From positions 149,367 through 213,366 of the forward strand of contig JAFSTN010000024.1 of assembly GCA_017450485.1 (NCBI GenBank): DNA of 64,000 bases. The letters are read 5' to 3'. A model generated the notes under the pieces. That model saw only the letters and a program-made list of their open reading frames with translations, did no database searches and was not told where the DNA came from. This document shows positions 1,264 to 31,646 of this stretch, one piece after another; positions within the stretch are counted from its first letter, which is position 1; each line of letters starts with the position of its first letter. Made by a program: the position numbers and the translations under genes. This stretch comes from Lachnospiraceae bacterium (GTDB lineage: Bacteria; Bacillota; Clostridia; Lachnospirales; Lachnospiraceae).

Positions 1264-3366
1264 ATGAGTGAAGTAACCGAATTATTTGGACAGAACGTCT
1301 TTACACGCGGCAAGATGAAAGAACGTCTGCCCAAAAATGTGTACAGAGAGTTGATCAGAGTATCCGAAAGAGGCGGAGAACTCTCGATGGAAGCGGCTAA
1401 TGTCATAGCCAAAGCCATGAAGGATTGGGCCGAGGAGAACGGAGCTACCCATTATACACACTGGTTCCAGCCTCTGACCGGTATTACGGCGGAGAAGCAT
1501 GATGCATTCGTATCACTTCCGGATGAGGACGGACGCATGATCACGGAGTTCTCCGGCAAAGAGCTGATCAAGGGTGAGCCTGATGCATCTTCATTCCCCT
1601 CGGGAGGATTGAGAGCAACATTTGAGGCCAGAGGTTATACCGCATGGGATATCACCTCTCCGGCTTTTCTTAAAGAATCATCCTGCGGCGTGATACTGTG
1701 TATACCCACCGCGTTCTGCTCATATACCGGTGAAGCGCTGGATAAGAAGACACCGCTCCTGCGTTCCATGGAAGCACTCAGCGAGCAGGCTCTCAGGATC
1801 GTCAGACTGTTCGGCAACACGGATGCTACCAAGGTCACTCCCTGTGTCGGCCCCGAGCAGGAATACTTCCTGGTGGATGCCGATCTGTATATGCAGCGTC
1901 TGGATCTGATGTTTGCCGGACGTACACTCTTCGGTGCTCCCGCGCCCAAGGGCCAGGAGATGGATGACCACTATTTCGGTGTCATCAGGGAGAGAGTCGG
2001 CGCATACATGAAGGATTTAAACGAGGAGCTCTGGAAGCTTGGCATCCTTGCGAAGACTCAGCATAATGAGGTTGCACCCGCACAGCATGAGCTGGCTCCG
2101 ATCTTCGATACGGTCAATATCGCCGTGGATCATAACCAGCTCGTCATGGAGACGATGAAGCGCGTGGCTACGCGTCATAACTTAAGATGCCTCCTGCATG
2201 AGAAGCCTTATGCCGGTGTGAACGGTTCCGGTAAGCACAATAACTGGTCCATCAATACGGATGACGGTGTGAACATGCTCGATCCCGGTGATACGCCAAA
2301 TGAGAATCTCCAGTTCCTTCTGGTGCTTGCATGCATCATGAAGGCAGTGGATGATCATGCCGATCTGCTCAGACAGTCGGCGGCTGACGTGGGTAACGAT
2401 CATCGTCTCGGAGCCAATGAGGCACCTCCGGCTATCATATCCATTTTCCTCGGAGAGCAGCTTGAGGATGTGGTGACCCAGCTCGTTGAGACAGGTGTGG
2501 CCAGCTCAGCGATACAGGGCGGAAAGCTTGAGACCGGAGTGTCCACACTTCCCGATTTTGAAAAGGATGCAACCGACCGCAACAGGACATCCCCGTTTGC
2601 TTTTACGGGAAATAAGTTTGAATTCAGAAGCGTCGGCAGTTCCGACTCCATAGCAAGCCCGAACACGATCCTCAATGCGATAGTTGCGGAAGCCTTCGAT
2701 GAGGCCGCCACTATCCTGGAGGGCGCCGATGATTTCGAGATGGCTGTACACGATCTGATCAAAAAGTATATGACAGAGCATCAGCGTATCATATTTAACG
2801 GTGACGGATACTCGGATGAATGGGTGGCTGAGGCTGCCAGACGGGGGCTGCCGAATATCAAGAGCATGATCGAGGCGGCTTGTGCGCTGACAACGGATAA
2901 GTCCGTTGCTCTGTTTGAGAGATTTAAGATATTCAACAGAACCGAGCTTGAGTCCCGCGAAGAGATCATATACGAGACCTATGCAAAGACTATCAATATC
3001 GAAGCGCTTACTATGATCGACATGGCCGGCAAGCAGATCATCCCCGCAGCAGTGAAGTATTCCGGCGAGCTGGCGCGTACCGTGAATGAGGTCAAGGCAG
3101 CAGGCGTAAATGCCGCAGCCGAAGATGAACTCCTTAAGAAGACTATCGGATATATCAATGATGCACAGACGGCATATAACAAACTCAAGGAAGTGAGTGC
3201 ACAGGCTGTTACCGTAAAAGACGGCAAGGAACGAGCTTTCTATTATAAGGATGTAGTAAAGATCGCCATGGATGAACTTCGCAGTCCCTGCGATGAGCTG
3301 GAGATGATAGTTGATAAGTCCATGTGGCCGATCCCGACATATGCGGAGCTGATGTTTGAGGTATGA
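1264..3366 (+). CDS. glnN: Glutamine synthetase type III
   Basis: This 700-residue protein has the usual length of GSIII, the large dodecameric ATP-dependent glutamate-ammonia ligase of many anaerobes. GSI and GSII are much shorter. Visible family segments are [10 protein letters not shown] near residue 195 (metal and substrate glutamates), [10 protein letters not shown] near residue 319, and [17 protein letters not shown] near residue 440, the arginine-rich substrate site. The chosen ATG at 1264 gives the normal GSIII N-terminus; the ribosome site upstream is weak (AGAGGA). It is preceded by a terminator and followed 39 bases later by a lipoprotein gene, so it is probably transcribed from its own promoter. 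Role: cytosolic ammonium assimilation. Confidence 0.97.
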
Positions 3367-27729: not shown

Positions 27730-27876
27730 ATGAAGATTGATCACATCGCAATGTATGTAAATGACCCGGATGCTGCAAGGGACTTTTTCGTCAGGTATTT
27801 TGACGGAAAATCAAACGACGGCTATTACAATGAAAAGACAGGGTCAGTGGTTGATATATGCCTGCGAGTGTGCTAA
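27730..27876 (+). pseudogene. Truncated glyoxalase/VOC-family gene (48 codons)
   Basis: A frame starting MKIDHIAMYVNDPDAARDFF, eight bases after the phosphorylase stop, is the classical first module of a vicinal oxygen chelate (glyoxalase) protein, with the metal-ligand histidine in DHIA. Family members have about 120-130 residues. This one runs to about residue 39 in homologous sequence (GYYNEKTG), then SVVDICLRVC and stop. The 3' two-thirds are missing. The end of the frame carries the promoter of the ABC-F gene, so the truncation joined that promoter region to the phosphorylase operon. Confidence 0.7.
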
Positions 27877-27879
27877 TAT
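27851..27879 (+). promoter_or_regulatory. SigmaA-type promoter of the ABC-F gene
   Basis: TTGATA (27851-27856) and TAATAT (27874-27879) are spaced by 17 bases. The predicted transcript has a leader of about 240 bases before the ABC-F start codon. Confidence 0.75.
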
Positions 27880-27923
27880 ATCAAAACAAAAAGAAAGGCG
27901 CGCAACAGCGTGTGGGTGAAAGA

Positions 27924-27938
27924 ATGATTATTAGATGA
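27924..27938 (+). CDS. Possible 4-residue upstream frame in the ABC-F leader
   Basis: ATG ATT ATT AGA TGA lies about 40 bases after the promoter. It is very short and may be chance; it is listed because very short leader frames take part in control of this gene family. Confidence 0.15.
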   Translation: MIIR

Positions 27939-27986
27939 TACACTGGTGAACATAGACTTATTTTACGGCCTTAAAAAGGTCTGTTT

Positions 27987-28019
27987 ATGTATGCCGGATG
28001 GATCATCGTGATCATTTGA
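27987..28019 (+). CDS. Candidate leader peptide of the ABC-F gene (10 aa)
   Basis: The frame MYAGWIIVII stops at 28019. AAAGG lies about 8 bases upstream. Its first codons form the 5' arm (27989-27998) of a long-range hairpin with 28044-28053. Ribosome stalling on such a peptide is the usual trigger in attenuator-controlled antibiotic resistance ABC-F genes. The peptide itself is not a known family. Confidence 0.5.
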   Translation: MYAGWIIVII

Positions 28020-28053
28020 ACGAACCTCGCGGAATGTGTGTATTTCGGCATAC
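27989..28053 (+). promoter_or_regulatory. Long-range hairpin in the ABC-F leader
   Basis: GTATGCCGGA (27989-27998) pairs with TTCGGCATAC (28044-28053) over ten positions with one G-T pair. The 5' arm lies within the 10-residue leader frame, so a stalled ribosome would prevent this pairing. A second small inverted repeat, GATCA/TGATC, is inside the loop at 28001-28013. Confidence 0.6.
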
Positions 28054-28073
28054 GGTTTTCATTTGTGTGTATG

Positions 28074-28102
28074 ATCTGCTTCGGTATGGAGCAGATTTTT
28101 TT
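28074..28102 (+). terminator. Intrinsic terminator / attenuator upstream of the ABC-F gene
   Basis: ATCTGCT (28074-28080) pairs perfectly with AGCAGAT (28090-28096) around a 9-base loop, followed by six T. It lies in the leader, 28 bases before the start codon of the gene it precedes, the position of an attenuator rather than of a normal 3' end. Confidence 0.8.
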
Positions 28103-28129
28103 ATGCCGTTACAGACTGGAGGGATGGAT

Positions 28130-29662
28130 ATGGCACAGATACAGGTGACAGATCTGACATTTACATATGACGGAAGTGCGGACGACATATTTGACAAGGT
28201 TACATTCCGCATTGATACGGACTGGAAGCTCGGACTGATCGGCAGAAACGGAAAGGGCAAGACTACGCTCCTGAACCTTCTGTTGGGTAAATACGAGTAT
28301 AAGGGAAGCATATCTTCAAGCGTGATCTTTGATTATTTTCCATACGGGGTGACAGACGCAGACCTCACCCGGACGGCAGCCGAACTGATGGAAAAATGGA
28401 AGCCGGAAGCAGAACTCTGGCAGGTACTCATTCAGATGGATGAGCTCGGGATGGATCCGGAGTGCCTGTACAGGCCTTTTGGGACACTAAGCTTCGGGGA
28501 GCGGACCAGAGTGATGCTGGCTGTTCTTTTTGCAGCGGAAAATGAGTTCCTGCTGATCGATGAGCCGACGAACCACCTGGATGGCCGGGCCCGTGAGATC
28601 GTGAAGGAGTACCTGTCTGCAAAGAAGGGCTTCATACTGGTTTCACATGACAGGGATCTGCTGGACGGAGTGTGCGATCATGTTTTGGTCTTAAACAGAG
28701 AGAGCATAGAAGTTCAGGCCGGCAACTTTTCCTCATGGTGGGAGAACAAGGAAAAACAGGATGCATTCCGGCAGGCGGAAAACGAGAAGCACCTGCGCGA
28801 GATAGGCAAACTTAAAGTATCGGCCGACAGGAGCAGCAGGTGGGCAGACAAAAACGAGAACACAAAGATCGGGTTTGATCCCCGCAAAGAGCCTGACAGA
28901 AGTATCTCAACCAGATCTTATATAGGGGCCAAGACCAAGAAGATGCAAAAACGGGTGAAGGTATATGAGGCCCGGATCGACCGGGAGATAGCGGAAAAGG
29001 AGGGGCTCTTAAATGACATCGAGAAAGTGGTGGATCTTAAGCTGAAGCCGCTCGGGTTTCATAAGGAGATCCTGATAGATGCTTCCGAACTGTCTCTTAA
29101 ATATGAGAGTGCTGTAGCACCACTGACAGAAGGCTTCAAATTTCAGCTGAAAAGAGGAGATCGCATAGTACTGGCCGGTGAAAACGGATGCGGGAAGTCA
29201 AGTTTACTGCACGCTATACTTCATAAGATCGGATATCCGGGGTTTGAAGATCCTTCAGGTCTGACAGTATCGGGACGTCTGGATATTCCGGCGGGAATTA
29301 CGGTTTCATATATCAGTCAGGATACATCCTTTCTGGCGGGTTCCCTGCGCAGTTATGCGGAGTGCAGAGACCTTGACGAGAGTCTGTTTCTGGCTGTACT
29401 CAGACAGCTTGATCTGGAACGGGAGCAGTTCGTAAAGAATATGGAGGACTATTCCGAAGGGCAGAAAAAGAAAGTGCTCATAGCTGCGAGCCTGATCACC
29501 CCCGCACATCTGTATATCTGGGACGAGCCGCTCAACTTTATCGATGTTTTTTCCAGGATGCAGATCGAGAAGCTGATCCTGGAGTATGAACCTACGATGC
29601 TTCTGGTTGAACATGATGTCAGATTTCAGGAAAAAGTTGCTACAGGTATTATCAGGATGTAA
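28130..29662 (+). CDS. ABC-F ATPase, Lsa-like antibiotic resistance (ribosomal protection) type
   Basis: The start at 28130 is supported by TGGAGG seven bases upstream; the open frame extends further but the homology begins at MAQIQVTDLTF. The 510-residue soluble protein has two ATPase domains: Walker A GRNGKGKTT near residue 38 and GENGCGKSS near residue 355, signatures FGERT and YSEGQ, and Walker B LLIDEPTNHLD and YIWDEPLNFID. The linker between them (about 195-305) is long. The opening FTYDGSxDxIF and WKLGLIGRNGKGK are close to the Lsa/Vga group that dislodges lincosamides, pleuromutilins and streptogramin A. Resistance is inferred, not shown. A leader with promoter, short frame and terminator precedes it. 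Confidence 0.9.
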   Translation: MAQIQVTDLTFTYDGSADDIFDKVTFRIDTDWKLGLIGRNGKGKTTLLNLLLGKYEYKGSISSSVIFDYFPYGVTDADLTRTAAELMEKWKPEAELWQVLIQMDELGMDPECLYRPFGTLSFGERTRVMLAVLFAAENEFLLIDEPTNHLDGRAREIVKEYLSAKKGFILVSHDRDLLDGVCDHVLVLNRESIEVQAGNFSSWWENKEKQDAFRQAENEKHLREIGKLKVSADRSSRWADKNENTKIGFDPRKEPDRSISTRSYIGAKTKKMQKRVKVYEARIDREIAEKEGLLNDIEKVVDLKLKPLGFHKEILIDASELSLKYESAVAPLTEGFKFQLKRGDRIVLAGENGCGKSSLLHAILHKIGYPGFEDPSGLTVSGRLDIPAGITVSYISQDTSFLAGSLRSYAECRDLDESLFLAVLRQLDLEREQFVKNMEDYSEGQKKKVLIAASLITPAHLYIWDEPLNFIDVFSRMQIEKLILEYEPTMLLVEHDVRFQEKVATGIIRM

Positions 29663-29744: not shown

Positions 29745-31646
29745 ATGCCGGGTCCCGGTGGAAGAGGCGGTCTGGGCCCGAGAGGGTTTCTCACCGAAGA
29801 AGAAAAAGCAAATCTGCCGAAGGTGGATAAAACACTGTTAAAACGGATCCTTTCATACATGAAACCGTATTGGATCCAGTTCCTGTTCGTGTTTATAGCG
29901 ATCCTGATCAGCGCGGTCATAGGTCTTTTGCCGTCCATCATCACAGGTAAGATAGTGGATCAGGCTCTGATCAATAAGGACATGGCACTTCTGATCCGTC
30001 TGCTCTTCATGGCGTTCGCCACGCTCGCCGCATCCCAGATCGTCGGCGTTCTGGAGTCGTATATCAATGCCTGGATCTCCCAGCGTATCATTTTTGATAT
30101 GAAGAACCAGATGTATCATCATCTGCAGTATATGCCGCATTCCTTTTTTACCACTGAGAAACAGGGCGATATCATCACGCGCATGAACACCGATATCAGC
30201 GGTGTCAGCAGTGTTATATCGGGTACTCTTTCACACGTCGTTTCGAATGCGGCGACAGTCATTACGACTCTGGTCGCTCTGTTTACGATGAGCTGGCAGC
30301 TGGCGATCGTCGGAGTCATCATCATTCCGCTCCTGATACTGCCGACCAAGAGAGTGGGCAGGAATCAATGGCAGATCCGGTCGGATTCGCAGGCCAAGAA
30401 TGATGAGATGAACCAGCTTATCAATGAGTCCCTCAGTGTGAGCGGATCGGTGCTGGTCAAGCTTTTCACCAGAGAAGAAAGAGAATACGAGAGATTCGTC
30501 AAGGTAAATTCGGAGCTCACGAGCCTGAATCTGAAGGAACAGCGGAGCGGCAGCTGGTTCCGCGTGGTTATGGGAATGTTCACGCAGGTGGGGCCGCTTC
30601 TCATTTATTTTGCAGGCGGATACTTCATCATATCCCGGATGGACGAAAACCTGACCGTAGGTACGATCACAGCTATGGTAGCGCTCATCAATAGGTTGTA
30701 CAGACCGGTTCAGGATCTGCTTAATCTCCAGGTTGATTTCACCAGAAGTCTGGCACTTTTTTCCAGAATATTCGAATACTTCGATATGAAGAGCTCAATA
30801 GTGAGTCCGGAAAACGGCGCGATGCCGGATGTTACCTGCAGAGAGATAGTATACGACCATGTCGCGTTTTCATATGATCCGGAAGTTCCCATACTTACGG
30901 ATGTGAGTTTCACGGTCCCGGGCGGTCAGATGTATGCCATAGTCGGTCCCTCCGGCTCGGGTAAATCGACGATCGTCAACCTCATACCGAGGCTGTATGA
31001 CGTATGCGCAGGCTCTGTCAGGATAGGCGATACGGATGTCAGAGATTTTGATCTGTCGTATCTGAGGTCAACGATCGGTGTCGTGACGCAGGAGACGTAT
31101 CTTTTCAACGGAACCATCAGGGAAAATCTCCTCTATGCAAAAGAGGATGCTACCGAAGAGGAACTCATCAGCGCATGCAAGAATGCTAACATCCACGACT
31201 TCATTGTTAACCAGCCTGACGGATATGACACCGTCGTGGGGAACAGGGGACTGAAGCTCTCCGGCGGTGAGAAACAGCGTCTGTCCATAGCCAGAGTTAT
31301 ACTTAAAGATCCAAGGATACTGATCCTCGATGAAGCTACGAGTGCGCTGGATTCCATATCCGAGAATGCCATTCAGGAAGCGCTTGAACTGCTGATGCAG
31401 GGCCGGACAAGTATAGTCATCGCGCACAGGCTGTCTACAATCCTCAAAGCGGATGCGATCCTGGTAGTCAAGGACGGCGTTATCGCAGAGCGCGGAACCC
31501 ACGAATCACTGCTTGACTTAAACGGAATATATAAAGAACTGTATGAAACACAGTTCAGACAGGTGCTTGACATGGAAGGGACAGCAGATAAACTCGAGGG
31601 TACAGACTATTGGGGCAAAGTCGAAGAAGAAAACATGGGATTCTGA
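29745..31646 (+). CDS. ABC exporter, fused membrane and ATPase domains
   Basis: The 633-residue half-transporter has a Gly/Pro-rich N-terminus, six membrane helices (about 45-350) and a nucleotide-binding domain (about 375-610) with GPSGSGKST, LSGGEKQR, ILILDEATSALD and the switch histidine in IVIAHRLST. It would work as a homodimer or with an unseen partner; here no second exporter gene is adjacent, so a homodimer is more likely. AAGGGAGG precedes the ATG. Its stop codon is the first three bases of repeat copy B. Substrate unknown; location next to an ABC-F gene may suggest drug export. Confidence 0.93.
   Translation: MPGPGGRGGLGPRGFLTEEEKANLPKVDKTLLKRILSYMKPYWIQFLFVFIAILISAVIGLLPSIITGKIVDQALINKDMALLIRLLFMAFATLAASQIVGVLESYINAWISQRIIFDMKNQMYHHLQYMPHSFFTTEKQGDIITRMNTDISGVSSVISGTLSHVVSNAATVITTLVALFTMSWQLAIVGVIIIPLLILPTKRVGRNQWQIRSDSQAKNDEMNQLINESLSVSGSVLVKLFTREEREYERFVKVNSELTSLNLKEQRSGSWFRVVMGMFTQVGPLLIYFAGGYFIISRMDENLTVGTITAMVALINRLYRPVQDLLNLQVDFTRSLALFSRIFEYFDMKSSIVSPENGAMPDVTCREIVYDHVAFSYDPEVPILTDVSFTVPGGQMYAIVGPSGSGKSTIVNLIPRLYDVCAGSVRIGDTDVRDFDLSYLRSTIGVVTQETYLFNGTIRENLLYAKEDATEEELISACKNANIHDFIVNQPDGYDTVVGNRGLKLSGGEKQRLSIARVILKDPRILILDEATSALDSISENAIQEALELLMQGRTSIVIAHRLSTILKADAILVVKDGVIAERGTHESLLDLNGIYKELYETQFRQVLDMEGTADKLEGTDYWGKVEEENMGF

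Follow-up and report, generated by a model that had tools for sequence, protein, structure and literature searches.

The window, the whole analyzed stretch of 64,000 nucleotides from a Lachnospiraceae bacterium, harbors an ABC-F gene at 28130..29662 that encodes an Lsa-type ribosomal protection protein of 510 amino acids. The gene and all leader features described below lie on the + strand. The assignment is based on the NCBIfam models NF000355 and NF000167 and on comparisons with Lsa(A) and Lsa(E), which are the same kind of protein. The window protein reaches 423 bits with NF000355 (ribosomal protection-like ABC-F, cut-off 380) and 608 bits with NF000167 (Lsa family), the latter below the curated cut-off of 750. 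Its best solved relative is Lsa(A) (7nhk, E 2e-111), and it is 51.6% identical over the whole length to plasmid Lsa(E). Relatives at E<=1e-80 are present in 83 of the 200 genomes of the family sample. The window's genus is represented there by one further genome, which has none at this threshold. An ABC exporter-like gene (29745-31646, same strand) starts 82 bases 3′ of the ABC-F gene.

The signals that the earlier note had read upstream of the gene are all present. The ribosome site GGAGGG is located at 28118 and is followed by the ATG at 28130. The promoter-like site TTGATA-17-TAATAT (27851..27879), with its 17-base spacer, matches in 9 of 12 positions and has an extended −10 with TG in front of it, but it does not by itself exceed chance, as four such sites were found in a 3.3 kb scan in which 4.3 are expected. 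Among relatives, a match of at least 9 of 12 occurs in the corresponding stretch of 21 of 34 leaders, and the mean best promoter score is 8.9, compared with 7.7 in single-base shuffles. The intrinsic terminator with its T run spans 28073..28102 (stem 28073-28097, seven T); the terminator scan gave five matches with 2.3 expected, of which this stem has the most pairs. The ribosome site of the gene lies outside the terminator, and in the local fold of the window five of the seven bases of GGAGGGA are predicted to be mostly unpaired and two paired. None of 200 shuffles folds as well as the window leader (z −5.6).

Upstream of the leader, a truncated VOC (glyoxalase-like) open reading frame of 48 codons occupies 27730-27876. 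Over 41 residues, this remnant matches an intact VOC gene close to the leader in L125/L015 (same genome) at 61%. The end of the VOC remnant contains the promoter of the leader, which suggests a junction near 27845 left by an insertion or a deletion.

Short reading frames in the leader

Comparison with related leaders supports the earlier proposal that a leader with a terminator and a short, translated frame precedes an Lsa-type ABC-F gene and is best explained by readthrough that ribosome-targeting drugs induce, and it changes the identity of that frame. The window leader contains a four-codon upstream open reading frame (uORF), MIIR-stop (ATGATTATTAGATGA, 27924..27938), that is preceded by the ribosome site GGGTGA (27914..27919). 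The predicted duplex of this site with the 16S 3′ end amounts to −7.8 kcal/mol in the window and ranges from −4.2 to −12.4 kcal/mol across 35 aligned leaders. A frame of three to four codons with its ribosome site and in-frame stop is kept in 35 of the 35, a rate that is biased because the uORF motif or element B served in part to select the leaders for the alignment. The four-codon peptides of the aligned leaders are MIIR, MKNR, MEIR, MINR, MKIR, MENR, MIVR, MNIR, MRNR, and MRIR; the others are MRY, MKY, MKN, and MHR. Frames of the M-x-x-R type are also present in leaders that were found by covariance model. Directly before the ribosome site of the uORF, a small 5′ hairpin (27898..27914) is paired in 75.7% of cells over the 35 leaders and shows changes on both sides in three of its six pairs; its register is uncertain, as a slide by two columns still pairs 72.4%.

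A pattern that requires xGA or xGG at the fourth codon caught 99 distinct leaders, in which this codon is AGA in 77, CGA in 8, AGG in 2, TGA in 12, and GGA in none. Since the leader sequences are related, this only suggests that arginine or a stop at codon 4 is under selection, and it raises the question of whether drug sensing by such tiny uORFs depends on their sequence. Regular expressions missed or mis-assigned some uORFs (e.g., L137, L142, L148, L150, L170, L175, L185, and L188), so that the tally of uORF peptides over the oriented loci is rough; the codon-4 tally used a stricter pattern. The prevalence of arginine, found at codon 4 in 87 of the 99 leaders, would fit an arginine-starvation attenuator, in which slow decoding of the arginine codon in M-x-x-R senses low Arg-tRNA. 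This is improbable in our judgment, as the frame has a single arginine codon that is replaced by a stop in 12 of the 99, and the genes downstream code for ribosome-protection, acetyltransferase, or export proteins, with no arginine gene seen.

The earlier note had instead named a ten-residue frame, MYAGWIIVII, as the leader peptide. This frame exists at 27987-28019, where it overlies element B of the switch described below, and a ribosome site AAAGG is found 7 bases upstream (−4.0 kcal/mol). Its role as the peptide is a different matter. The codon at its start position is ATG in 3 aligned leaders, GTG in 25, and something else in 7; the frame varies from 3 to more than 40 codons; neither stop nor sequence is kept; and the reading frame of the window differs from that of most relatives by an indel. 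Because GTG can start translation and ribosome-site scores at this position range from −3.8 to −10.2 kcal/mol among the leaders, translation there is possible. Judged from the aligned sequences, the product is apparently conserved no further than the RNA constraint on element B gives, and in the window the AAGG is paired in the free fold. MYAGWIIVII was therefore rejected as the sensor peptide for its unconserved start codon, length, stop, and sequence, and on the sequence comparison MIIR-stop is likely the sensor frame.

Competing helices and the proposed switch

Four elements of the leader can take part in mutually exclusive pairings. Element A (27922..27957) is the uORF region and forms the 5′ side of an anti-antiterminator helix with element B (27983..28017), the anti-uORF or antiterminator strand. 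Element B can also pair with element D (28071..28085), which comprises the 5′ arm and the loop of the terminator and is thus a competing partner; in the window, 27993-27998 pairs with 28080-28085 and 28001-28006 with 28071-28076. Element C (28042..28053) pairs with 27989-27999 and is not kept in all relatives.

The helices were examined on an alignment of 35 related leaders by the share of paired cells, by changes on both sides of a pair, and by comparison with slid partners and 500 shuffles. (L064 was omitted from alignment A3, and L075 has no upstream DNA.) Helix A:B comprises 29 pairs with 90.1% of cells paired and 9 pairs changed on both sides. The conservation of this and the other helices is inflated, as the uORF or B motif was used in part to select the aligned leaders and each helix comes from their own consensus; A:B itself was taken from a consensus fold and then pair-counted on the sequences from which it was derived. 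Slid partners pair to 31-47%, 13 of 500 shuffles reach 9 two-sided pairs, and 44 of 500 reach its pair types. Helix B:D has 19 pairs, of which 9 vary on both sides, and 91.5% of its cells are paired, against 29-42% in slid controls; 1 of 500 shuffles reaches its two-sided count. The terminator (10 pairs, 97.0%, 5 two-sided pairs) has slid controls of 39-55%; none of 500 shuffles reaches its two-sided count and 264 of 500 reach its pair types. The shuffle controls are thus mixed. RNAalifold draws B:D on the whole 35-leader alignment and finds a helix of only seven pairs when given A to B alone. L053 and L064 seem to be without the 3′ arm of the terminator.

The ten-pair hairpin on which the earlier note had built its switch does exist (27989-27999 with 28042-28053). 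The same comparison gives it 12 pairs with 84.6% of cells paired, against slid controls of 30-61%, and 5 two-sided pairs (6 cells), which 18 and 21 of 500 shuffles reach, respectively. This covariation is weak, and element C as the antiterminator is the least supported of the competing helices. The covariance analysis of homologous leaders that had been proposed as a check returned compensatory changes in A:B, B:D, and the terminator and only weak ones in the proposed hairpin. A mechanism in which stalling on MYAGWIIVII opens the hairpin 27989-28053 has in its favor that frame and hairpin are both present and that a start codon with a ribosome site is available; given the unkept frame and the hairpin with the least covariation, it is very unlikely.

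A second group of 30 leaders (alignment A5), which stand mostly before other ABC-F genes, has a different terminator loop. For this group, RNAalifold on the whole alignment gives A:B plus the terminator, and a B:D helix appears when A is omitted. A5 holds 30 of the 36 leaders of sub-group 2; left out were L137, L168, L170, and L188, all with a wrong automatic start, as well as L124 and L167.

Comparison and folding thus show a conserved uORF with its ribosome site, covariation in A:B, B:D, and the terminator, and bases that are shared among these three. With high confidence, the leader can be read as a ribosome-controlled transcription attenuator in which MIIR-stop is the sensor, A:B and B:D are the two states of the switch, and drugs induce readthrough into the ABC-F gene. 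Transcription would start near 27886. During normal translation, ribosomes would finish the four-codon MIIR-stop at once and leave, upon which the free uORF region A could pair with B, the terminator would form, and the transcript would end near 28102. A drug that blocks the peptidyl-transferase center would hold the ribosome on the uORF and keep A covered. Element B would then be free to pair with D, which would prevent the terminator and allow the ABC-F gene to be transcribed. The expected drugs for Lsa-type proteins are a lincosamide, a pleuromutilin, or a streptogramin A; for the window gene, we infer the stalling, the readthrough, and this drug spectrum.

The predicted switch was followed by folding transcripts that end before the 3′ arm of the terminator. 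When the ribosome footprint on the uORF is barred from pairing, the median helix probability over the 35 leaders falls from 0.81 to 0.27 for A:B and rises from 0.00 to 0.59 for B:D. For the window leader, a footprint on the start codon leaves B:D at 0.07, and B:D becomes the best fold only once the cover reaches the stop codon of the uORF, so that the modeled switch is weaker here than in most relatives. In full-length transcripts, most leaders still favor the terminator even when the uORF is covered (median 0.71, B:D 0.03); hence the switch must be decided during transcription.

The strong conserved RNA structure would suit a ligand-binding riboswitch or a protein-bound antiterminator in which the uORF is incidental. 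We consider this remote, since the ribosome site and the in-frame stop are kept while the uORF varies between three and four codons, a related leader class seems to have a seven-codon uORF, and Rfam gave no leader-family match for the window leader and none at E<=1 for the leaders of 13 loci.

Distribution of the leader and its downstream genes

R1, a covariance model built from the A:B part, detects the leader at 21 places in 20 of 200 family genomes; 20 of these places precede an ABC-F gene, a piece of one, or its start; 5 of these 20 were in the model's own alignment. The remaining match, L129, was judged false, as it is a long inverted repeat without a ribosome site-bearing uORF and without an ABC-F gene; it nonetheless scores 34.9 bits with a second covariance model, R2. 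In the order sample the leader occurs in 34 of 392 genomes, all but one in the window's family, and in the phylum sample in 3 of 398, including the window's own and all in the window's family. The sequence searches thus suggest that the leader is found nearly only in Lachnospiraceae. R2, which was trained partly on genus g200 (taken as Butyrivibrio), detects it in 52 of 79 Butyrivibrio genomes at 68 places.

Peptide and fold had earlier been thought specific to the window gene, a reading that these searches do not support: the same leader family precedes three ABC-F lineages and some other genes. The first lineage is Lsa-type like the window protein. The second is closest to Vga models but below their cut-offs, with the scored proteins (L117, L119, L120, and L122) being pieces cut by the end of the locus. 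The third is Vga/Msr-like (L139, 452 bits for NF000355). Among 103 oriented loci, which overlap between searches and include the window, an ABC-F match lies downstream in 88 (46 Vga-like, 27 Lsa, and 15 of the third type, some of them pieces) and none in 15. L112-L116 repeat the leaders of L003, L005, L006, the window, and L008; L009/L079 and L012/L095 are duplicates, L126/L127 have identical leaders, and L143/L183 and L148/L185 are the same places.

L126 and L127 belong to two genera and share an identical leader with a Vga-like ABC-F gene. The protein upstream of this leader resembles a plasmid mobilization protein. Being identical in two genera and located behind this protein, the copy looks mobile.

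Among the 15 loci with no ABC-F match are four with the uORF MFIR-stop (L141, L187, L189, and L192), in which the gene next to the leader codes for a GNAT acetyltransferase and lies 91-107 bases from the model match. The GNAT is followed by a P-loop kinase-like protein with weak dNK/thymidylate-kinase matches below cut-off, and in two of the four loci a second GNAT lies between them. Relatives of the L141 GNAT were found at 22 places in 21 of 79 Butyrivibrio genomes and, among 150 family genomes, in 1, namely its own. Eleven of the 22 places are at most 5 kb downstream of a same-strand leader and eleven are not. About 4 bases separate the GNAT from a preceding ABC-F gene in G946, and about 20 bases separate it from a preceding ABC-F piece in G971. 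From these positions, the GNAT looks like an operon partner of ABC-F genes that follows the leader alone in four genomes.

Further leaders stand before two ABC-2 permease genes (L197), before a UDG-like gene that is followed by relatives of these permeases (L149 and L203), before another GNAT (L201), and, with the uORF MIF-stop, before a DJ-1/PfpI protein (L213). L205 and L206 keep the leader RNA in front of an ABC exporter and have lost the start codon of the uORF, which may indicate that the switch has decayed or been rewired. No gene lies close to the leader in L193, and L211 keeps MTIR-stop without a clear ribosome site. L132 lies at a contig edge and includes the beginning of a second Lsa-type gene. 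No NCBIfam model gives a drug function at cut-off for the non-ABC-F proteins tested, and any role of theirs in resistance is putative. With somewhat less than even confidence, we propose that the M-x-x-R leader is a portable sensor of blocked ribosomes in Lachnospiraceae that became joined to unrelated genes and that the Butyrivibrio GNAT/kinase-like and ABC-2 operons are unrecognized resistance determinants. If so, the leader could serve as bait for more genes of resistance to ribosome-targeting drugs. As it serves three ABC-F lineages and other operons, searching for the leader can lead to genes of unknown function that are drug-inducible.

Known systems and other leader classes

The proposed mechanism matches, by analogy, the published leaders of vmlR and cplR. 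In the vmlR leader of Bacillus subtilis, the uORF MIN lies in the anti-antiterminator hairpin, and loss of its start codon or ribosome site nearly abolishes expression (PMC9226507). The tiny uORF inside such a hairpin before an ABC-F gene and the mutually exclusive antiterminator and terminator are common to both leaders. The vmlR leader differs from that of the window in the sequence, in the uORF (MIN-stop instead of M-x-x-R-stop), and in a hairpin that hides the ribosome site of the gene, which is not clearly seen in the window (PMC9226507).

The cplR leader of Clostridioides difficile carries the uORF MRI (consensus MR[I/M]), hidden in a 5′ hairpin, and a terminator before the ABC-F gene, features that the window shares (PMC10201436). 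The cplR terminator is described there as also sequestering the ribosome site of the gene, whereas the site at 28118 is located outside the window terminator. The same report lists the uORF consensus MK[L/Q] for VmlR2 and MAGN for LsaA; the latter has four codons like MIIR but is not of the M-x-x-R type (PMC10201436). These published cases suggest that a uORF of such small size is well matched to drugs that prevent the first peptide bonds from forming.

The mechanism is of a known kind, and what appears to be new is the leader family, the M-x-x-R uORF, and the spread to non-ABC-F genes. A search of the open-access literature found no report of such Lachnospiraceae leaders, which is weak evidence with subscription papers and preprints outside its scope. 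With the sensor peptide corrected, there is a testable switch model of how ABC-F resistance would be induced in bacteria that are common in the gut and rumen.

Other leaders occur before related genes. Out of the upstream regions of 109 P0001-type genes, 35 are in alignment A2 and 12 more match R1 (E<=0.01; the scan covered the window, the loci outside A2, and L064). By pattern, 26 of the 109 belong to a second class with the uORF MR[RIK]-stop and the like, and 5 to a third class with a uORF like MRKISCR-stop. At least 78 of the 109 regions, with a few duplicates included, thus carry a leader of one of the three classes. In the second class (L011, L017, L019-L024, L026-L031, L076, L086, and others), MR[RIK]-stop forms part of the 5′ arm of a long hairpin that is followed by T. 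Several members have a second terminator-like hairpin nearer to the gene, perhaps making two stacked switches.

The one copy of plasmid lsa(E) that was examined, from Enterococcus faecalis (L235, 410-650), has a leader different from that of the window. Its layout is similar and comprises a ribosome site, the uORF MYNFSC-stop, an anti-uORF, and a terminator with a competing sequence, and resembles the class seen in L012, L082, L103, and L111. In the second-class locus L019, an azaaromatic riboswitch (RF01764, 55.4 bits) is located at 3141-3317, about 120 bases downstream of an Lsa-type gene.
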